Shown here: piece by piece, positions 21,949-29,566 of the stretch
Layout of the letters: every line of letters begins with the position of its first letter
Position numbering within the stretch: position 1 is the stretch's first letter
Source: a virus
Direction: 5' to 3' (one strand)
Virus record (IMG/VR): IMGVR_UViG_3300034120_000659
Coordinates: 1-30,483 of that record
Length of the DNA stretch: 30,483 bases
Made by a program: the position numbers and the translations under genes
The notes under the pieces: generated by a model
Told to the model about the DNA's origin: nothing
The model's database searches: none
What the model saw: the letters and a program-made list of their open reading frames with translations, nothing else

Positions 21949-22036
21949 ACCGACGTGGTGTATTCCAGGAAACACACCGGACTGAGGTAACTCACCAGAC
22001 GTTCCGGAGTAGCAGGTTCAAATCCTGCCGTCGGTA
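21949..22036 (+). tRNA. tRNA-like gene with expanded anticodon loop
   Basis: ACCGACG (21949-21955) pairs perfectly with CGTCGGT (22029-22035), then an A discriminator. The T-arm GCAGG-TTCAAAT-CCTGC (22012-22028) is a perfect canonical TpsiC arm, and the D-arm has GTG/CAC with GG in a 12-nt loop. The anticodon stem CCGGA/TCCGG (21977-21981, 22003-22007) encloses 21 nt rather than 7, leaving 14 extra bases that contain a TGAG-GTAA-CTCA mini-hairpin. No 5-7-5 anticodon fold or class II fold works. If the first bases are used, C-T-G-A-G would give anticodon GAG (Leu). CCA is not encoded. It may be a degraded tRNA, a tRNA-like RNA, or a tRNA with an intervening sequence. Confidence 0.65.
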
Positions 22037-25227: not shown

Positions 25228-25930
25228 GATGCGTTGCAATCTCGACACGGACTGGCGGGTGATCCAGATCGCTTCGCAGCTCGAAATGTCGGAGTTGCAC
25301 GTCGTTGGGTGCCTCTGGAAACTGTGGACGTGGGCCGACCAAAACACCGCAGACGGTAACGCTGTGAGCGTTACAGATGTAACGCTCGACCGTTTCACTG
25401 GTGTAACAGGGTTCGCGTCATCGATGCGAAACGTGGGCTGGCTGACTGGCGAAAACTACCAGATCACGTTCCCAAATTTCGTCGAGCACAACGGCTCAAC
25501 CGCTAAAAAGCGTGCGAAAACGCAGCAAAGAGTCACGAAACACCGTAACGCTCGCAGCGTTACAGATGTAACGCTCAAAGCGTTACCAGAGAAGAGAAGA
25601 GAAGAGAAGAGTATTACACACACACACACGGAGGAAAACGTTCCAAGGAAAGACATCCCCGAATGGGTGGTCGATCCGTGGGAGCGGTTCCTCAAGACGG
25701 TCTTCGCGGTGACTGGCCGTCAGATGCCAGAGACGACCCAGGACGCGACGCTGATGGAGGTGCTGCGACGTGGCGAGGCGAAGGGCAAGGCCGATCTCGA
25801 GTTCTCGGTCATGAAGGGGGCTAAGACGCTTTTAGACAGCGGCAACGACTTCCAAGCACGTTCGGTCGGGTCAACAGCTCGGAGTGCGTCTAAGTCGAAA
25901 TCTGAGGCCATTAAGGAATTTTGCAAATGA
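25208..25930 (+). CDS. Replication initiator, lambda O-like
   Basis: A 240-residue protein. Start: ATG preceded by CCAAGGAG. The N-terminal domain (WIKMRCNLDTDWRVIQIASQLEMSELHVVGCLWKLWTWADQNTADG...) is a winged-helix-type domain common in phage replication proteins, ending at F-V-E-H-N-G-S-T-A-K-K-R. A basic linker (AKTQQRVTKHRNARSV...) is followed by a C-terminal helical domain (PEWVVDPWERFLKTVF...). The middle of the gene carries palindromic repeats and a purine tract, as lambda O carries its origin. The gene product would bind those repeats and recruit the helicase loader encoded next. Confidence 0.72.
   Translation: MAGDWIKMRCNLDTDWRVIQIASQLEMSELHVVGCLWKLWTWADQNTADGNAVSVTDVTLDRFTGVTGFASSMRNVGWLTGENYQITFPNFVEHNGSTAKKRAKTQQRVTKHRNARSVTDVTLKALPEKRREEKSITHTHTEENVPRKDIPEWVVDPWERFLKTVFAVTGRQMPETTQDATLMEVLRRGEAKGKADLEFSVMKGAKTLLDSGNDFQARSVGSTARSASKSKSEAIKEFCK
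25356..25629. other. Candidate replication origin (iterons, purine tract)
   Basis: Seven copies of the half-site GTAACGCT / AGCGTTAC lie in two clusters. The first (25356-25386) is GTAACGCT-3-AGCGTTAC-4-GTAACGCT. The second (25545-25586) repeats that block and adds a second palindrome. The 4-nt spacer is AGAT in both. Immediately after, a 24-nt all-purine run of GAAGA repeats (25588-25611) and seven AC dinucleotides (25616-25629) could act as an unwinding element. Location inside the O-like gene matches lambda. The protein encoded here is basic and glutamate-rich, so some repetition may serve the protein, but the near-identical palindromes suggest DNA-level selection. Confidence 0.6.
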
Positions 25931-26421: not shown

Positions 26422-26509
26422 ATCCCGCTCGGTGTTATAAGCGTGGTGACGGTCGAAGTTTGAAGATTGTTTTCCTGATCGGGAATGAAATAAAAACAGG
26501 GTACTTTTT
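26422..26509 (+). promoter_or_regulatory. Spacer before the cassette array, possible weak promoter
   Basis: Non-coding, AT-rich sequence between phage replication genes and the first attC-like site. A weak promoter-like pair, TTGTTT (26467-26472) and TAAAAA (26491-26496) 18 nt apart, could drive the cassettes in place of an integron Pc. The early operon may also read through. No integrase gene or attI site is seen. Confidence 0.25.
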
Positions 26510-26580
26510 GTTACATCACCCAGCGGCGGGTGAATTTAATTTAAGCACCTAGCCGCTTGGGTGCATGGGGTTGTTATCAG
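26510..26580 (+). repeat. attC site A (left arm degenerate)
   Basis: CACCCA-GCGGC (26517-26527) pairs with GCCGC-T-TGGGTG (26552-26563), with one extrahelical T. R' is GTTATCA at 26573, crossover expected after 26573. The expected AAC of the R'' box is replaced by TTT, so the site is a truncated or decayed attC, perhaps the scar of the left junction. Confidence 0.65.
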
Positions 26581-26589
26581 GCTTTTATT

Positions 26590-26889
26590 ATGAGCGATGA
26601 GATTTACGAAATTCAGGTCAAAGTTCCGGTGTGCGTTACATTGCGTTTGTCGAAAGAAGATGCCGAAAGCATGTACCATGACGAATTGTGCGAAGTCGTC
26701 GATTCAGTTTTGGACGATATGGAACAAACGATGCGAACTCCAGGAGGACTCAAAGCTGTGGACGGTGAGACATGCGCCGGAAGAGTCATAAGCGTTCTGT
26801 TCAAGGTTGCACCGCATTGGGATCATTTGCCGGTGGATGATTGCGAGTTGACGCTGACCTATGACGGACTGTTTCCAGAGCTGGAATAG
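26590..26889 (+). CDS. Cassette 1 gene, unknown (99 aa)
   Basis: Product of the first cassette. The start is its own ATG 17 nt inside the cassette. An in-frame TTG at 26557 would run through attC A, but that arm's phase differs from the other sites. The 99-residue protein has alternating strands (EIYEIQVKVPVCVTLRL), an acidic helix (DELCEVVDSVLDDMEQTM) and a final strand (CELTLTYDGLF). It has three to four cysteines and is acidic. It is not recognised. Cassette genes are commonly unique. Confidence 0.7.
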   Translation: MSDEIYEIQVKVPVCVTLRLSKEDAESMYHDELCEVVDSVLDDMEQTMRTPGGLKAVDGETCAGRVISVLFKVAPHWDHLPVDDCELTLTYDGLFPELE

Positions 26890-26890
26890 T

Positions 26891-26983
26891 CCTGATAACG
26901 CAATGGATCATCGAGCGGCAAAGGAAAAACTATGAGCAAAAATGAAAGCGTGGATGCCGCTTCGATGCATCCAATTGTTCGGC
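26891..26983 (+). repeat. attC site B
   Basis: R'' is GATAAC in CCTGATAAC (26891-26899), followed by a left arm ending GCGGC. The right arm begins GCCGC (26956) and ends with R' GTTCGGC (26977-26983). The stem is GGAT-C-ATCGA-GCGGC against GCCGC-T-TCGAT-GC-ATCC, with extrahelical T961 and unpaired central bases, as in known attC sites. The loop carries AAAGGAAAAACTATG, the Shine-Dalgarno and start of cassette 2's gene. Confidence 0.85.
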
Positions 26984-27309
26984 ATCTTACAGGCATAGAT
27001 TTTACGGTGGTTGCGAAGCCGTCGGAATATCATTGCGATTTCGAGGTGTTCGAAATTCTGTCGCGAGAGCCAACGCTGCTTTGGCAGCTTCCAAGCGGAA
27101 GAAGCCCAGACCCGACAGCAGACATGGTAGAAGCAGCGAGATTTCTGTATGGGTCGGTTAAGTGGGATGGATGTTCGAATTGGCATTTCGACATCCAGGA
27201 CGATTGCATGATTCACTTTTGTTCTTCAGAGCAAGCGGAAGCAATTGGAGCGTTGTTCCGCGAGCTGTATTTGATGGCGGCAGAGATGATTCCAACGTGG
27301 GATCGGTAA
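26932..27309 (+). CDS. Cassette 2 gene, unknown, started inside attC B
   Basis: A 125-residue protein. The ATG and the AAAGGA Shine-Dalgarno lie in the loop of the preceding attC, so residues 1-15 (MSKNESVDAASMHPI) are encoded by recombination-site DNA and the cassette itself contributes an ORF that is open at its 5' end. The rest has a mixed alpha/beta look (FEVFEILSREPTLLWQL, ADMVEAARFLYGS, QAEAIGALFRELYLMAAEM). Not recognised. If the array is shuffled, this ORF would lose its start unless a similar attC lies upstream. Confidence 0.7.
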   Translation: MSKNESVDAASMHPIVRHLTGIDFTVVAKPSEYHCDFEVFEILSREPTLLWQLPSGRSPDPTADMVEAARFLYGSVKWDGCSNWHFDIQDDCMIHFCSSEQAEAIGALFRELYLMAAEMIPTWDR

Positions 27310-27311
27310 GT

Positions 27312-27401
27312 ATGCCGAACCCCAGGATCACCAAGCCCCCGCAGTGATCCTTTTATTCAGTAACGCACCATCGGGGGCTTTGGTGCATCCAATTGTTCGT
27401 C
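27312..27401 (+). repeat. attC site C
   Basis: R'' ATGCCGAAC (27312-27320) and R' GTTCGTC (27395-27401). AAGCCCCCG (27333-27341) pairs perfectly with CGGGGGCTT (27372-27380), with the unpaired loop between. The right arm TGGTGCATCCAATTG is almost identical to that of site B. The phase across the arm (GCT-TTG-GTG-CAT) stays in frame into the downstream lipoprotein gene. Confidence 0.85.
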
Positions 27402-27418
27402 GTTTAGGAGAGTGGGTT

Positions 27419-27802
27419 ATGACAAAGAAATACGCAGTGTATGTTGCTTTGTTTGCGTGCGTGTTTGTTGGTTGCAATGTATCGCAAAAGCCAGAGCCGC
27501 CAATCGTCGAGGTTAAATGCAGCGAATGCGACGGTGCGGGCAAAGTGACATACGGAACTGATCACCCGATTGTCAAAATGGGGTTCGATGCTGGAACGTA
27601 TGACTGCCCGATTTGTGGAGGATCAGGAACGCTTGAGGACGCGAACGAAAGTAGGACAACGTACAACGGTCGCGGCAAACGTCCAGCGACTATGCCACCT
27701 AAGCGATCAGACGGTAGAGAGTTTGATGGTGGGCCAAATTTCGGAAACGGAAGCTGGGCGCAACTGGACGAGGACGGTGTTTGGCGTAGGTATGGTGGGT
27801 GA
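27419..27802 (+). CDS. Cassette 3: lipoprotein with DnaJ-type zinc module
   Basis: A 127-residue protein with its own ATG after GGAGAG. A longer GTG-started version from 27344 would read in frame through attC C. The N-terminus MTKKYAVYVALFACVFVGC is a lipoprotein signal peptide with a probable lipobox F-V-G-C. It is followed by CSECDGAGK and CPICGGSGT, two CxxCxGxG zinc half-sites like DnaJ. The remainder is Gly/Arg/Asn rich. The mature protein would sit on a membrane surface. Secreted products are frequent in integron cassettes. Confidence 0.7.
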   Translation: MTKKYAVYVALFACVFVGCNVSQKPEPPIVEVKCSECDGAGKVTYGTDHPIVKMGFDAGTYDCPICGGSGTLEDANESRTTYNGRGKRPATMPPKRSDGREFDGGPNFGNGSWAQLDEDGVWRRYGG

Positions 27803-27894
27803 GACGAACGCTACGGTTCATCGAGCCGGAAAGGAAAGATTAACCATGTCAAATAACGCCGCAAGTCCGGCTTCGATGCAACCGTTTGTTATGC
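27803..27894 (+). repeat. attC site D
   Basis: R'' GACGAAC (27803-27809) and R' GTTATGC (27888-27894). Left-arm TTCATCGA-GCCGG pairs with CCGGCTTCGATGCAA, with the same extrahelical T as the others. The loop holds AAAGGAAAGATTAACCATG, the Shine-Dalgarno and ATG of cassette 4's gene. Confidence 0.85.
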
Positions 27895-28109
27895 GATGCC
27901 GCGACTGTGGCGATACTGGAAGCGATTGGTATTGGCACAACGCGAAGGGTCAAAAAATGAAGCAACCTCGTTGCTCAAGGTGTCACGAAGTGTTTATTTC
28001 GCGATACGACACAAAAGAGGAATGTGGTTATCTCGACATGAGCGGCCAAAGTCGGAGGGTGTGCGGAGTGCATCGTCGAGGCGTTTATGAATATCGAGAA
28101 GAGCAGTAG
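27846..28109 (+). CDS. Cassette 4: zinc-ribbon protein, started inside attC D
   Basis: An 87-residue product. ATG and Shine-Dalgarno are in the attC D loop. A second ATG, created by the GTTATGC R' box (27891), would give a shorter form, but without a Shine-Dalgarno. C-R-D-C-G-D-T-G and C-S-R-C-H-E-V-F form a four-Cys zinc ribbon, with further Cys in EECGYLD and RVCGVHRRG. It ends acidic (YEYREEQ). No family is recognised beyond zinc binding. Confidence 0.65.
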   Translation: MSNNAASPASMQPFVMRCRDCGDTGSDWYWHNAKGQKMKQPRCSRCHEVFISRYDTKEECGYLDMSGQSRRVCGVHRRGVYEYREEQ

Positions 28110-28113
28110 ATCG

Positions 28114-28201
28114 GCATAACGCTCGGGATAACCGAGCGGTGAGAGAAGATTAACCATTTGAACCGACGTTGCTACCGCTTCGGTTCATCCCATTGTTCGG
28201 T
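28114..28201 (+). repeat. attC site E
   Basis: R'' GCATAAC (28114-28120) and R' GTTCGGT (28195-28201). Left arm GGGATAACCGA-GCGG pairs with CCGCTTCGGTTCATCCC. Its loop resembles those of D and F but has ATT-TGA where they have ATG, so the translation start is destroyed. The downstream cassette uses its own start instead. Confidence 0.85.
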
Positions 28202-28220
28202 GGCCTTTAAGGAATTTACC

Positions 28221-28469
28221 ATGTTTGGAATGTACGAAGATCGACGGACAGCGGAAGAACGGAAGCGAGACTTTGAGCTACAAGACAAGCGAAGGGGGGA
28301 AAAGTTTCTTGCACTTGGATTCCTGAAGAACACTGTTCGACCATTGCTGAAGGACTCAGGTGCCGATGTGGGGCTGGCAGGTGAAGGAAGTTATAGCGGT
28401 GCGGAGCTACTAGTTGAGGTGGACGGAGTGACGTACAAGTTACAGGCGTCGGTAGATCACCACGAATAG
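28221..28469 (+). CDS. Cassette 5 gene, unknown (82 aa)
   Basis: An 82-residue product with its own AAGGA Shine-Dalgarno and ATG inside the cassette, 26 nt after the crossover point. A charged N-terminal helix (YEDRRTAEERKRDFELQDKRRGEKFLALGF) is followed by a small beta segment (AELLVEVDGVTYKLQASVDHH). Not recognised. It is the only cassette downstream of the start-less attC E, which fits it carrying its own translation signal. Confidence 0.7.
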   Translation: MFGMYEDRRTAEERKRDFELQDKRRGEKFLALGFLKNTVRPLLKDSGADVGLAGEGSYSGAELLVEVDGVTYKLQASVDHHE

Positions 28470-28471
28470 GT

Positions 28472-28562
28472 CCACCGAACGCTCGGATTCACCGAGCCGA
28501 ATAAGAAAGGTAAACCATGAAAACAGACGTTAATGAGGCTTCGGTGGAATCCGTTGTTATGT
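28472..28562 (+). repeat. attC site F
   Basis: R'' CCACCGAAC (28472-28480) and R' GTTATGT (28556-28562). Left CGGATTC-ACCGA-GCC pairs with GGC-T-TCGGTGGAATCC. The loop has AAGAAAGGTAAACCATG, a Shine-Dalgarno and ATG for cassette 6's gene. Confidence 0.85.
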
Positions 28563-28951
28563 TGCCGGATTTCGTCGAGAGAATGAAGGCTGGAGTGAAG
28601 CATATTCAGCAAGCTCAGGAGATTTTCGCTAGGGGTCCATTGGACTATTACCTAGTCAAACTGGTCGAACAGAGCGAGGCACTGCTAATGCGATTTTCTC
28701 CAATCAAAAAAGGGGAGCGTGCTATCATTGTCAAGAAAATCAAATGCGAAGGTGGCTGGTCGGGATCAGAGAAAAATCTGGCTGTAGGTGTTGAGGGCAC
28801 TGTAGTAGATGTTGACTACAGCGATGGAGGATTTGTTTACACGTTCGTGCCGGATGTGCAAATGTATCGCGACCACGAAGGCAACTACAAAGACAAGACC
28901 AGCAAGAGTAGCTATGGCCTAAGAGAAAAGTATCTACATAGGTCAACATAA
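28517..28951 (+). CDS. Cassette 6 gene, unknown (144 aa), started inside attC F
   Basis: Start and Shine-Dalgarno lie in the attC F loop. The leader MKTDVNEASVESV comes from attC DNA, and R' (GTTATG) supplies another in-frame ATG at 28559. The first half is helical (DFVERMKAGVKHIQQAQEIFARG, LVKLVEQSEALLMRF). The second half is beta-rich and Gly/Asp-rich (KGERAIIVKKIKCEGGWSG, AVGVEGTVVDVDYSDGGFVYTFVPDV), possibly a small SH3-like barrel. Its stop overlaps the R'' box of attC G. No known function. Confidence 0.7.
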   Translation: MKTDVNEASVESVVMLPDFVERMKAGVKHIQQAQEIFARGPLDYYLVKLVEQSEALLMRFSPIKKGERAIIVKKIKCEGGWSGSEKNLAVGVEGTVVDVDYSDGGFVYTFVPDVQMYRDHEGNYKDKTSKSSYGLREKYLHRST

Positions 28952-29036
28952 CGCTAATGATAATCGAGCCGCCGCCGATACGGCTCGCCATCACGAAAGA
29001 CACTATCGGCGGCTTCGATTCATCATTTTGTTAGGC
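28943..29036 (+). repeat. attC site G (terminal)
   Basis: R'' CAACATAAC (28943-28951) and R' GTTAGGC (29030-29036), which matches the consensus GTTRRRY exactly. The left arm TGATAATCGA-GCCGCCGCCGATA pairs with TATCGGCGGC-T-TCGATTCATCA, the longest stem in the set. The gene that follows has no attC after it, so this is the right end of the array. Confidence 0.88.
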
Positions 29037-29041
29037 GGCTT

Positions 29042-29491
29042 ATGATCACGATAGCGTTAGTCGGGTGCAGCAAAACCAAGGCGGTCAGCCACCCAAGCGG
29101 ATACGCGGCGGCAAGGGATTTGTACGTCAGCGATTTGTTTTCCAAGCGTGTTGATCACGTCGAAAGCCGTGGCTTGCCGTGGTACATCCTCTCCGCGAAG
29201 TGCGGATTACTGAAACCATCGGTGCAGGTTCGAGCCTACGACAAGACGATCAGCGATCTATCAGGAATCGAAGTTGCCGAATGGCACCTTGGCGTAGCCA
29301 ATCAATTGATGTCGGAGTTGTGGTACGAGTTCGGCGCGCCAAAGTTGTCGAGCGTGGCTGTGGAGCTGCACGCCGGCGCGAAGTATTGCGAACCGCTGGG
29401 GGCGATTCTTCAGATGTTCGGAGTGAAAGTAGTCAAGCCGGTGGCTAGTCGTGGCATCGGGCAGCAGTTGGCGTTCTACAAGTCCGCATAA
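29042..29491 (+). CDS. DUF6884-like protein
   Basis: A 149-residue protein: MITIALVGCSKTKAVSHPSGYAAARDLYVSDLFSKR, WYILSAKCGLLKP, then Y-D-K-T-I and W-H-L-G-V. This is the pattern of a phage/bacterial family (DUF6884) thought to resemble nucleoside-processing enzymes, though activity is not established. Its ATG lies 12 nt after the attC G crossover, and the attC arm phase (GCT-TCG) is in frame with it. There is no attC downstream with the R'' (GCCTAAC) that its 5' end would require. It may be a phage gene into whose 5' flank the array inserted. Confidence 0.65.
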   Translation: MITIALVGCSKTKAVSHPSGYAAARDLYVSDLFSKRVDHVESRGLPWYILSAKCGLLKPSVQVRAYDKTISDLSGIEVAEWHLGVANQLMSELWYEFGAPKLSSVAVELHAGAKYCEPLGAILQMFGVKVVKPVASRGIGQQLAFYKSA

Positions 29492-29528
29492 CAAATAGTA
29501 TGCGGAACTCCGCATATCACGGTGATAT
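29483..29528 (+). terminator. Mutually exclusive hairpins after the DUF6884 gene
   Basis: TCCGCATA (29483-29490), TATGCGGA (29499-29506) and TCCGCATA (29509-29516) allow either of two 8-bp stems. ATATCAC-G-GTGATAT (29514-29528) adds a third hairpin overlapping the last copy. There is no T-tract. It could be an attenuator or an antisense-type regulatory switch. Confidence 0.4.
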
Positions 29529-29566
29529 GTTGAATTTACCATATTCCGAATTGCAAAGGAAAGCCA

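Follow-up and report, generated by a model that had tools for sequence, protein, structure and literature searches.

The window, a 30,483-base IMG/VR virus record, carries between phage genes what sequence comparison confirms to be a real integron cassette array. We hold with good confidence that this array belongs to a phage integron system of which it lacks the integrase, and that units made of an attC site followed by its gene would be moved in trans, mainly at one attI-like site.

attC sites and the seven units

The array is preceded by replication genes, among them a phrog_2509 initiation protein, and followed by rusA, an identity taken over from the preliminary description of this DNA. 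Within 26498-29036 there are seven attC hairpins, six complete and one truncated, and the right end of the array is at 29491/29492 (Table 1). A covariance model, R1, whose 19 training sites all came from other contigs and none from the window, matched the six complete hairpins on the plus strand with 59-78 bits (E<=5e-12) and truncated site 1 (26498-26579, +), whose outer box is lost, with 27.9 bits (E=1.4e-4), while the other matches in the 30 kb were weak mirror matches (22 and 19 bits) on the opposite strand of two of the same sites. As expected of attC, the hairpins are imperfect, with AAC/GTT outer boxes, a covarying stem and, once the bottom strand folds, extrahelical bases in one of its arms; no Rfam family matched them. 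The stems have undergone 630 two-sided changes, nearly all of them Watson-Crick with G-U pairs almost absent, and therefore folded DNA fits them better than RNA. Additionally, the complementary run between cassette start and end averages 7.2 bases in 100 viral cassettes, against 4.1 (sd 0.15) with the ends shuffled, and such complementary ends together with whole-unit movement, as read from sequence comparison, are those of gene cassettes. Having two or more attC sites but lacking an integrase, the window array is a CALIN.

Table 1. Coordinates of the array and its boundaries in the window
Feature	Position	Strand	Description
Left boundary	26504..26514	+	CTTTTTGTTAC; common match stops here in L004, L013, L014, L015, L016
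Unit 1	26515..26898	+	attC without outer box (to 26579); gene 26590-26889, no match in family searches; R1 27.9 bits; attC core 81% identical to L004
Unit 2	26899..27319	+	attC 26893-26983; gene 26932-27309, phrog_33479, starting within the attC loop (MSKNESVDAASMHPIV-); R1 70 bits
Unit 3	27320..27808	+	attC 27314-27401; gene 27419-27802, probable lipoprotein with CXXCXGXG-like motifs (weak Pfam matches); R1 59.5 bits
Unit 4	27809..28119	+	attC 27803-27894; gene 27846-28109, start in attC loop, possible zinc ribbon; R1 78.5 bits
Unit 5	28120..28479	+	attC 28114-28201; gene about 28221-28469; R1 66.5 bits
Unit 6	28480..28951	+	attC 28474-28562; gene 28517-28951, start in attC loop; R1 68.4 bits
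Unit 7	28952..29491	+	attC 28946-29036; gene 29042-29491, DUF6884 (PF21818, E=1.9e-30); R1 71 bits
attI-like site, right boundary of the array	29490..29550	-	...CCGCATACTATTTG^TT; common boundary of seven contigs

The preliminary description had recognized seven attC-like sites, a 7-9 base complementarity of the cassette ends and integrase-less integron cassettes in a phage, and all of this is upheld by the results above. It withstands both refutations that the description had set, since a covariance model does score the hairpins as attC and, as described below, the cassettes differ between related phages. Its count of six cassettes has to be raised to seven units, the DUF6884 gene being the seventh.

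In the flanks, a chassis gene A follows the left boundary in L004 and L013-L016 and is deleted in the window, where gene A and two cassettes of L004 are lost at 26514 by an off-crossover deletion that truncated attC 1. Host contamination is ruled out for the window family by its phage flanks, and searches of named phages with the window terminase and replication genes gave distant matches only. Elsewhere in the window, 21949-22036 has an Rfam tRNA match (53.5 bits) without an ARAGORN call, and BLAST self-matches mark short direct and inverted repeats in a replication gene (25355-25394 and 25547-25587).

Unit boundaries, turnover and polarity

The same locus occurs in six further contigs (L004, L009, L013, L014, L015 and L016), with flanks about 75-95% identical to the window by segment. 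All seven contigs have the right boundary AACAAATAGTATGCGGA in common, and the cassette adjoining it is different in each, so that the comparison of related phages proposed in the preliminary description did find different cassettes at one locus. L013 and L016 differ by a single 283-bp unit at the right boundary, with identity over 2288 nt to its left and 52 nt to its right, a difference that may have arisen by loss of the unit instead of its gain. In L015, the block 28478-28952, which spans window unit 6, recurs at 100% identity with an AAC boundary at each end, and unit 3 has a 99.8% identical unit in L059; both matches end at, or a few bases from, AAC boxes. By these comparisons, cassettes turn over at the window locus among related phages. 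Near-identical attC cores also occur with different genes (unit 2 versus L009 and unit 7 versus L060, 98.8% each), a pattern not accounted for by the simple movement of units. A swapping of genes between fixed attC cores, considered from L004, was dropped as the chief explanation, as L015 and the L013/L016 pair give clean attC-containing units.

An array whose units were gained long ago and have since undergone only drift and homologous recombination would fit both the truncation of site 1 by an off-crossover deletion and the lack of intI in the window and in the records of L001, L004, L009, L015 and L016. However, we regard such a frozen state as improbable, because recent movement is indicated by the exact, single 283-bp difference between arrays that otherwise match throughout and by units that are 100% identical although their phages have diverged.

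The boundaries also bear on which strand of attC is which. Extra bases are more numerous in the 3' arm of 91 of 95 viral sites, like those of the bottom strand of the aadA1 attC control, for which we used what we take to be its sequence. On the plus strand, the window-type sites have AAC followed by G, and G after AAC at R' is reported for the bottom strand of most attC sites (PMC2727003). Together with the unit boundaries at AA^C, these features identify the window plus strand as the attC bottom strand; therefore attC lies 5' of its gene, and the unit that would move is attC-gene, cut at AA^C. The preliminary description had phased the cassettes as gene-then-attC with a G^TT crossover, which has to be reversed, since the AA^C crossover falls in the box that it called R'' and each attC thus belongs to its downstream gene.

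Polarity was further scored with a codon-based score trained on the window genes and one attC model for viral and host sites. Among 100 viral cassettes from 35 contigs, 71 were inverted and 29 undecided, and none of the 71 decidable ones had the canonical polarity, in which the attC top strand carries the gene and attC follows it on its 3' side. The loci of Pirellulales gave 39 canonical, 7 inverted and 13 undecided, with L108 and L110 left out after their phage-array look was seen; with both, the host count is 20 inverted to 39 canonical. These two Microbacteriaceae-binned contigs (CAKZKU010000221.1 and CAKZKU010000158.1) have phage-type arrays with 13 inverted and 0 canonical cassettes, and are probably mis-binned phage contigs.

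That the window instead holds gene-then-attC cassettes of the ordinary kind, with a G^TT cut, which were acquired together from a chromosomal integron of a host, we consider very improbable. The attC type is indeed that of Pirellulales chromosomes, and the symmetrical end complementarity fits either polarity; but the AA^C boundaries in L013/L016 and in window/L015 refute it unless they are exceptions, the strand-specific model and the side of the bulges speak against it, reading frames cross the GTT box, and host cassettes are mostly of the opposite polarity.

Candidate insertion site, integrases and probable host

Except for an insert of about 25 nt, the right boundary of the array is similar to the point in Pirellula MAG G006 at which array and intI meet (AACATATAGTATGCGGAATTTACCATATTCCG), and this homology, which comes from one host genome, suggests that it is a captured attI. 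One further copy of the motif, with 3 mismatches, was found in 297 genomes of G006's order (L177, G286:C150:3887-3918); it is surrounded by ATATGYKGAATT-like repeats, and the attI reading is weakened by this copy, as the piece read around it holds neither intI nor attC. The boundary could alternatively be a non-classical attG-type site.

No IntI was found in the 30-kb window, itself a fragment, so that no intI adjoins the array as it would in a complete integron, nor in the records of L001, L004, L009, L015 and L016, which are maybe fragments; L013 and L014 were outside this search. The unit boundaries point to recombination of the window attC sites by an IntI, and the integrase for the window array is probably supplied in trans. 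Among 50 related viral records, five have an IntI, four above the curated cut-off and that of G026 just under it, and their tyrosine-recombinase residues, read by eye, look intact. Four of the five (G022, G024, G026 and G036) also carry packaging or head genes, which rules out host contamination for them, and two proteins of G040 gave no match bearing on its phage status. In a tree of 52 sequences, a supported cluster holds the IntI from G024, G026, G036 and G040, with 42 host IntI and the four outgroups falling outside it; the G022 IntI pairs with L127, an IntI of a host MAG. A separate phage IntI group is nevertheless tentative because of long branches (G026, 1.91). L127 (G007:C95:188-1135) lies terminally on a 99-kb contig and is possibly prophage-borne. 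IntI occurs in 48 of 197 Pirellulales-order genomes. The virus Rctr41k has an IntI-like gene annotated xerD (L174, KX853513.1:4680-5678), 35% identical to the G024 IntI, with one weak attC match (21.5 bits) nearby.

A strict ungapped attC pattern found one contig. With gaps allowed, 83 stretches of viral contigs came up, the majority of which the model matched as well (249 attC matches in all, often several consecutive). Of 50 viral records examined in full, 49 gave matches, and about 75 viral contigs have attC of the window type. A genome scan for this type returned 18 contigs, mostly Planctomycetota, and from the attC type, the one pointer to the host, we infer a planctomycete. The 99 cassette proteins sampled fall into 86 families with a median length of 105 aa, and the few with Pfam matches include Lar restriction alleviation proteins, DNA methyltransferases and GIY-YIG proteins.

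Putative translation starts within attC and relation to known systems

Of the 95 distinct viral sites, 52 have an ATG within attC that opens a frame running into the gene (counted if it extends at least 40 codons beyond the GTT box), as in window units 2, 4 and 6. A Shine-Dalgarno-like sequence accompanies 42 of the 52, some of which may be chance frames, notably four in the third phase. Leaders encoded by attC recur (MSETNEASVQSVV-, MSK(K/N)ESVDAASMHPIV- and -EHLGSSDCS-) and are presumably translated. Loop-borne starts with Shine-Dalgarno sequences, and genes all on the hairpin strand, would also suit RNA elements controlling the translation of each gene rather than recombination sites, a reading we give hardly any credence given the near absence of G-U pairs, the occurrence of the same sites near intI and in chromosomal arrays whose genes lie on the opposite strand, and unit boundaries inside the hairpin outer box.

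We return to attC-gene units moved in trans, and propose that an IntI from the host or a co-resident phage would insert and remove single units, mainly at the one attI-like site that closes the array on its 3' side, through cuts at AA^C on the plus strand (G^TT on the other strand), with the attC bottom strand as the coding strand. Transcription of the genes would start at a phage promoter upstream and proceed towards attI, and many attC loops could provide the ribosome-binding site and start codon, so that a unit would carry its own translation start. The phage would benefit perhaps through host-specific early functions, e.g. anti-restriction. We lean slightly towards a wider reading, namely that phages of Planctomycetota possess their own IntI lineage and a shared pool of inverted attC-gene units, in which attC doubles as translation start and N-terminal leader, and swap early genes singly between phages. 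Phages thus seem to run their own version of the bacterial gene-capture system. If true, integrons would be a phage gene-exchange system in its own right, beyond the occasional carriage of a bacterial one, the one-at-a-time swapping of small early phage genes would be explained, and a recombination site would double as the start of the gene it moves, all of which the viral contigs with sites and the five phage-borne IntI genes make directly testable.

The preliminary description knew of no well-described case inside a phage replication region, but Qi et al. (2023; PMC9892861) already describe integrons and CALINs in 21 phages, some with IntI, and recombination by IntI1 of 5 of 6 phage attC tested. 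Phage integrons and CALINs are therefore known, while inverted polarity, attC-borne starts and a separate IntI group are apparently new; a partial literature search, with most subscription journals outside it, returned no earlier account of the three, and their novelty is accordingly not proven.

The phages of Qi et al. resemble the present contigs in their attC clusters with cassettes, some with IntI; however, they have other hosts, and the sections available mention neither inverted polarity nor attC start codons, whereas the present contigs form a whole planctomycete-type group that is uniformly inverted (PMC9892861). Chromosomal integrons of Pirellulales, e.g. of Adhaeretor mobilis, share their attC type and attC/intI geometry with the viral contigs, but mostly carry their genes on the opposite strand with respect to attC (39:7). 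ORF-11 in attI1 of class 1 integrons likewise places a translation start in a recombination site, where it aids cassette expression, but as a separate short frame in a fixed attI, whereas in the viral units the start lies in each attC and is fused in frame (PMC8876359). In the reverse integron of Treponema, intI and the cassette genes read the same way, as here; there, however, intI is turned towards attI and the cassette genes read away from it, whereas in the phage arrays intI keeps its usual position and it is the cassette genes that are turned relative to attC (PMC3607928).
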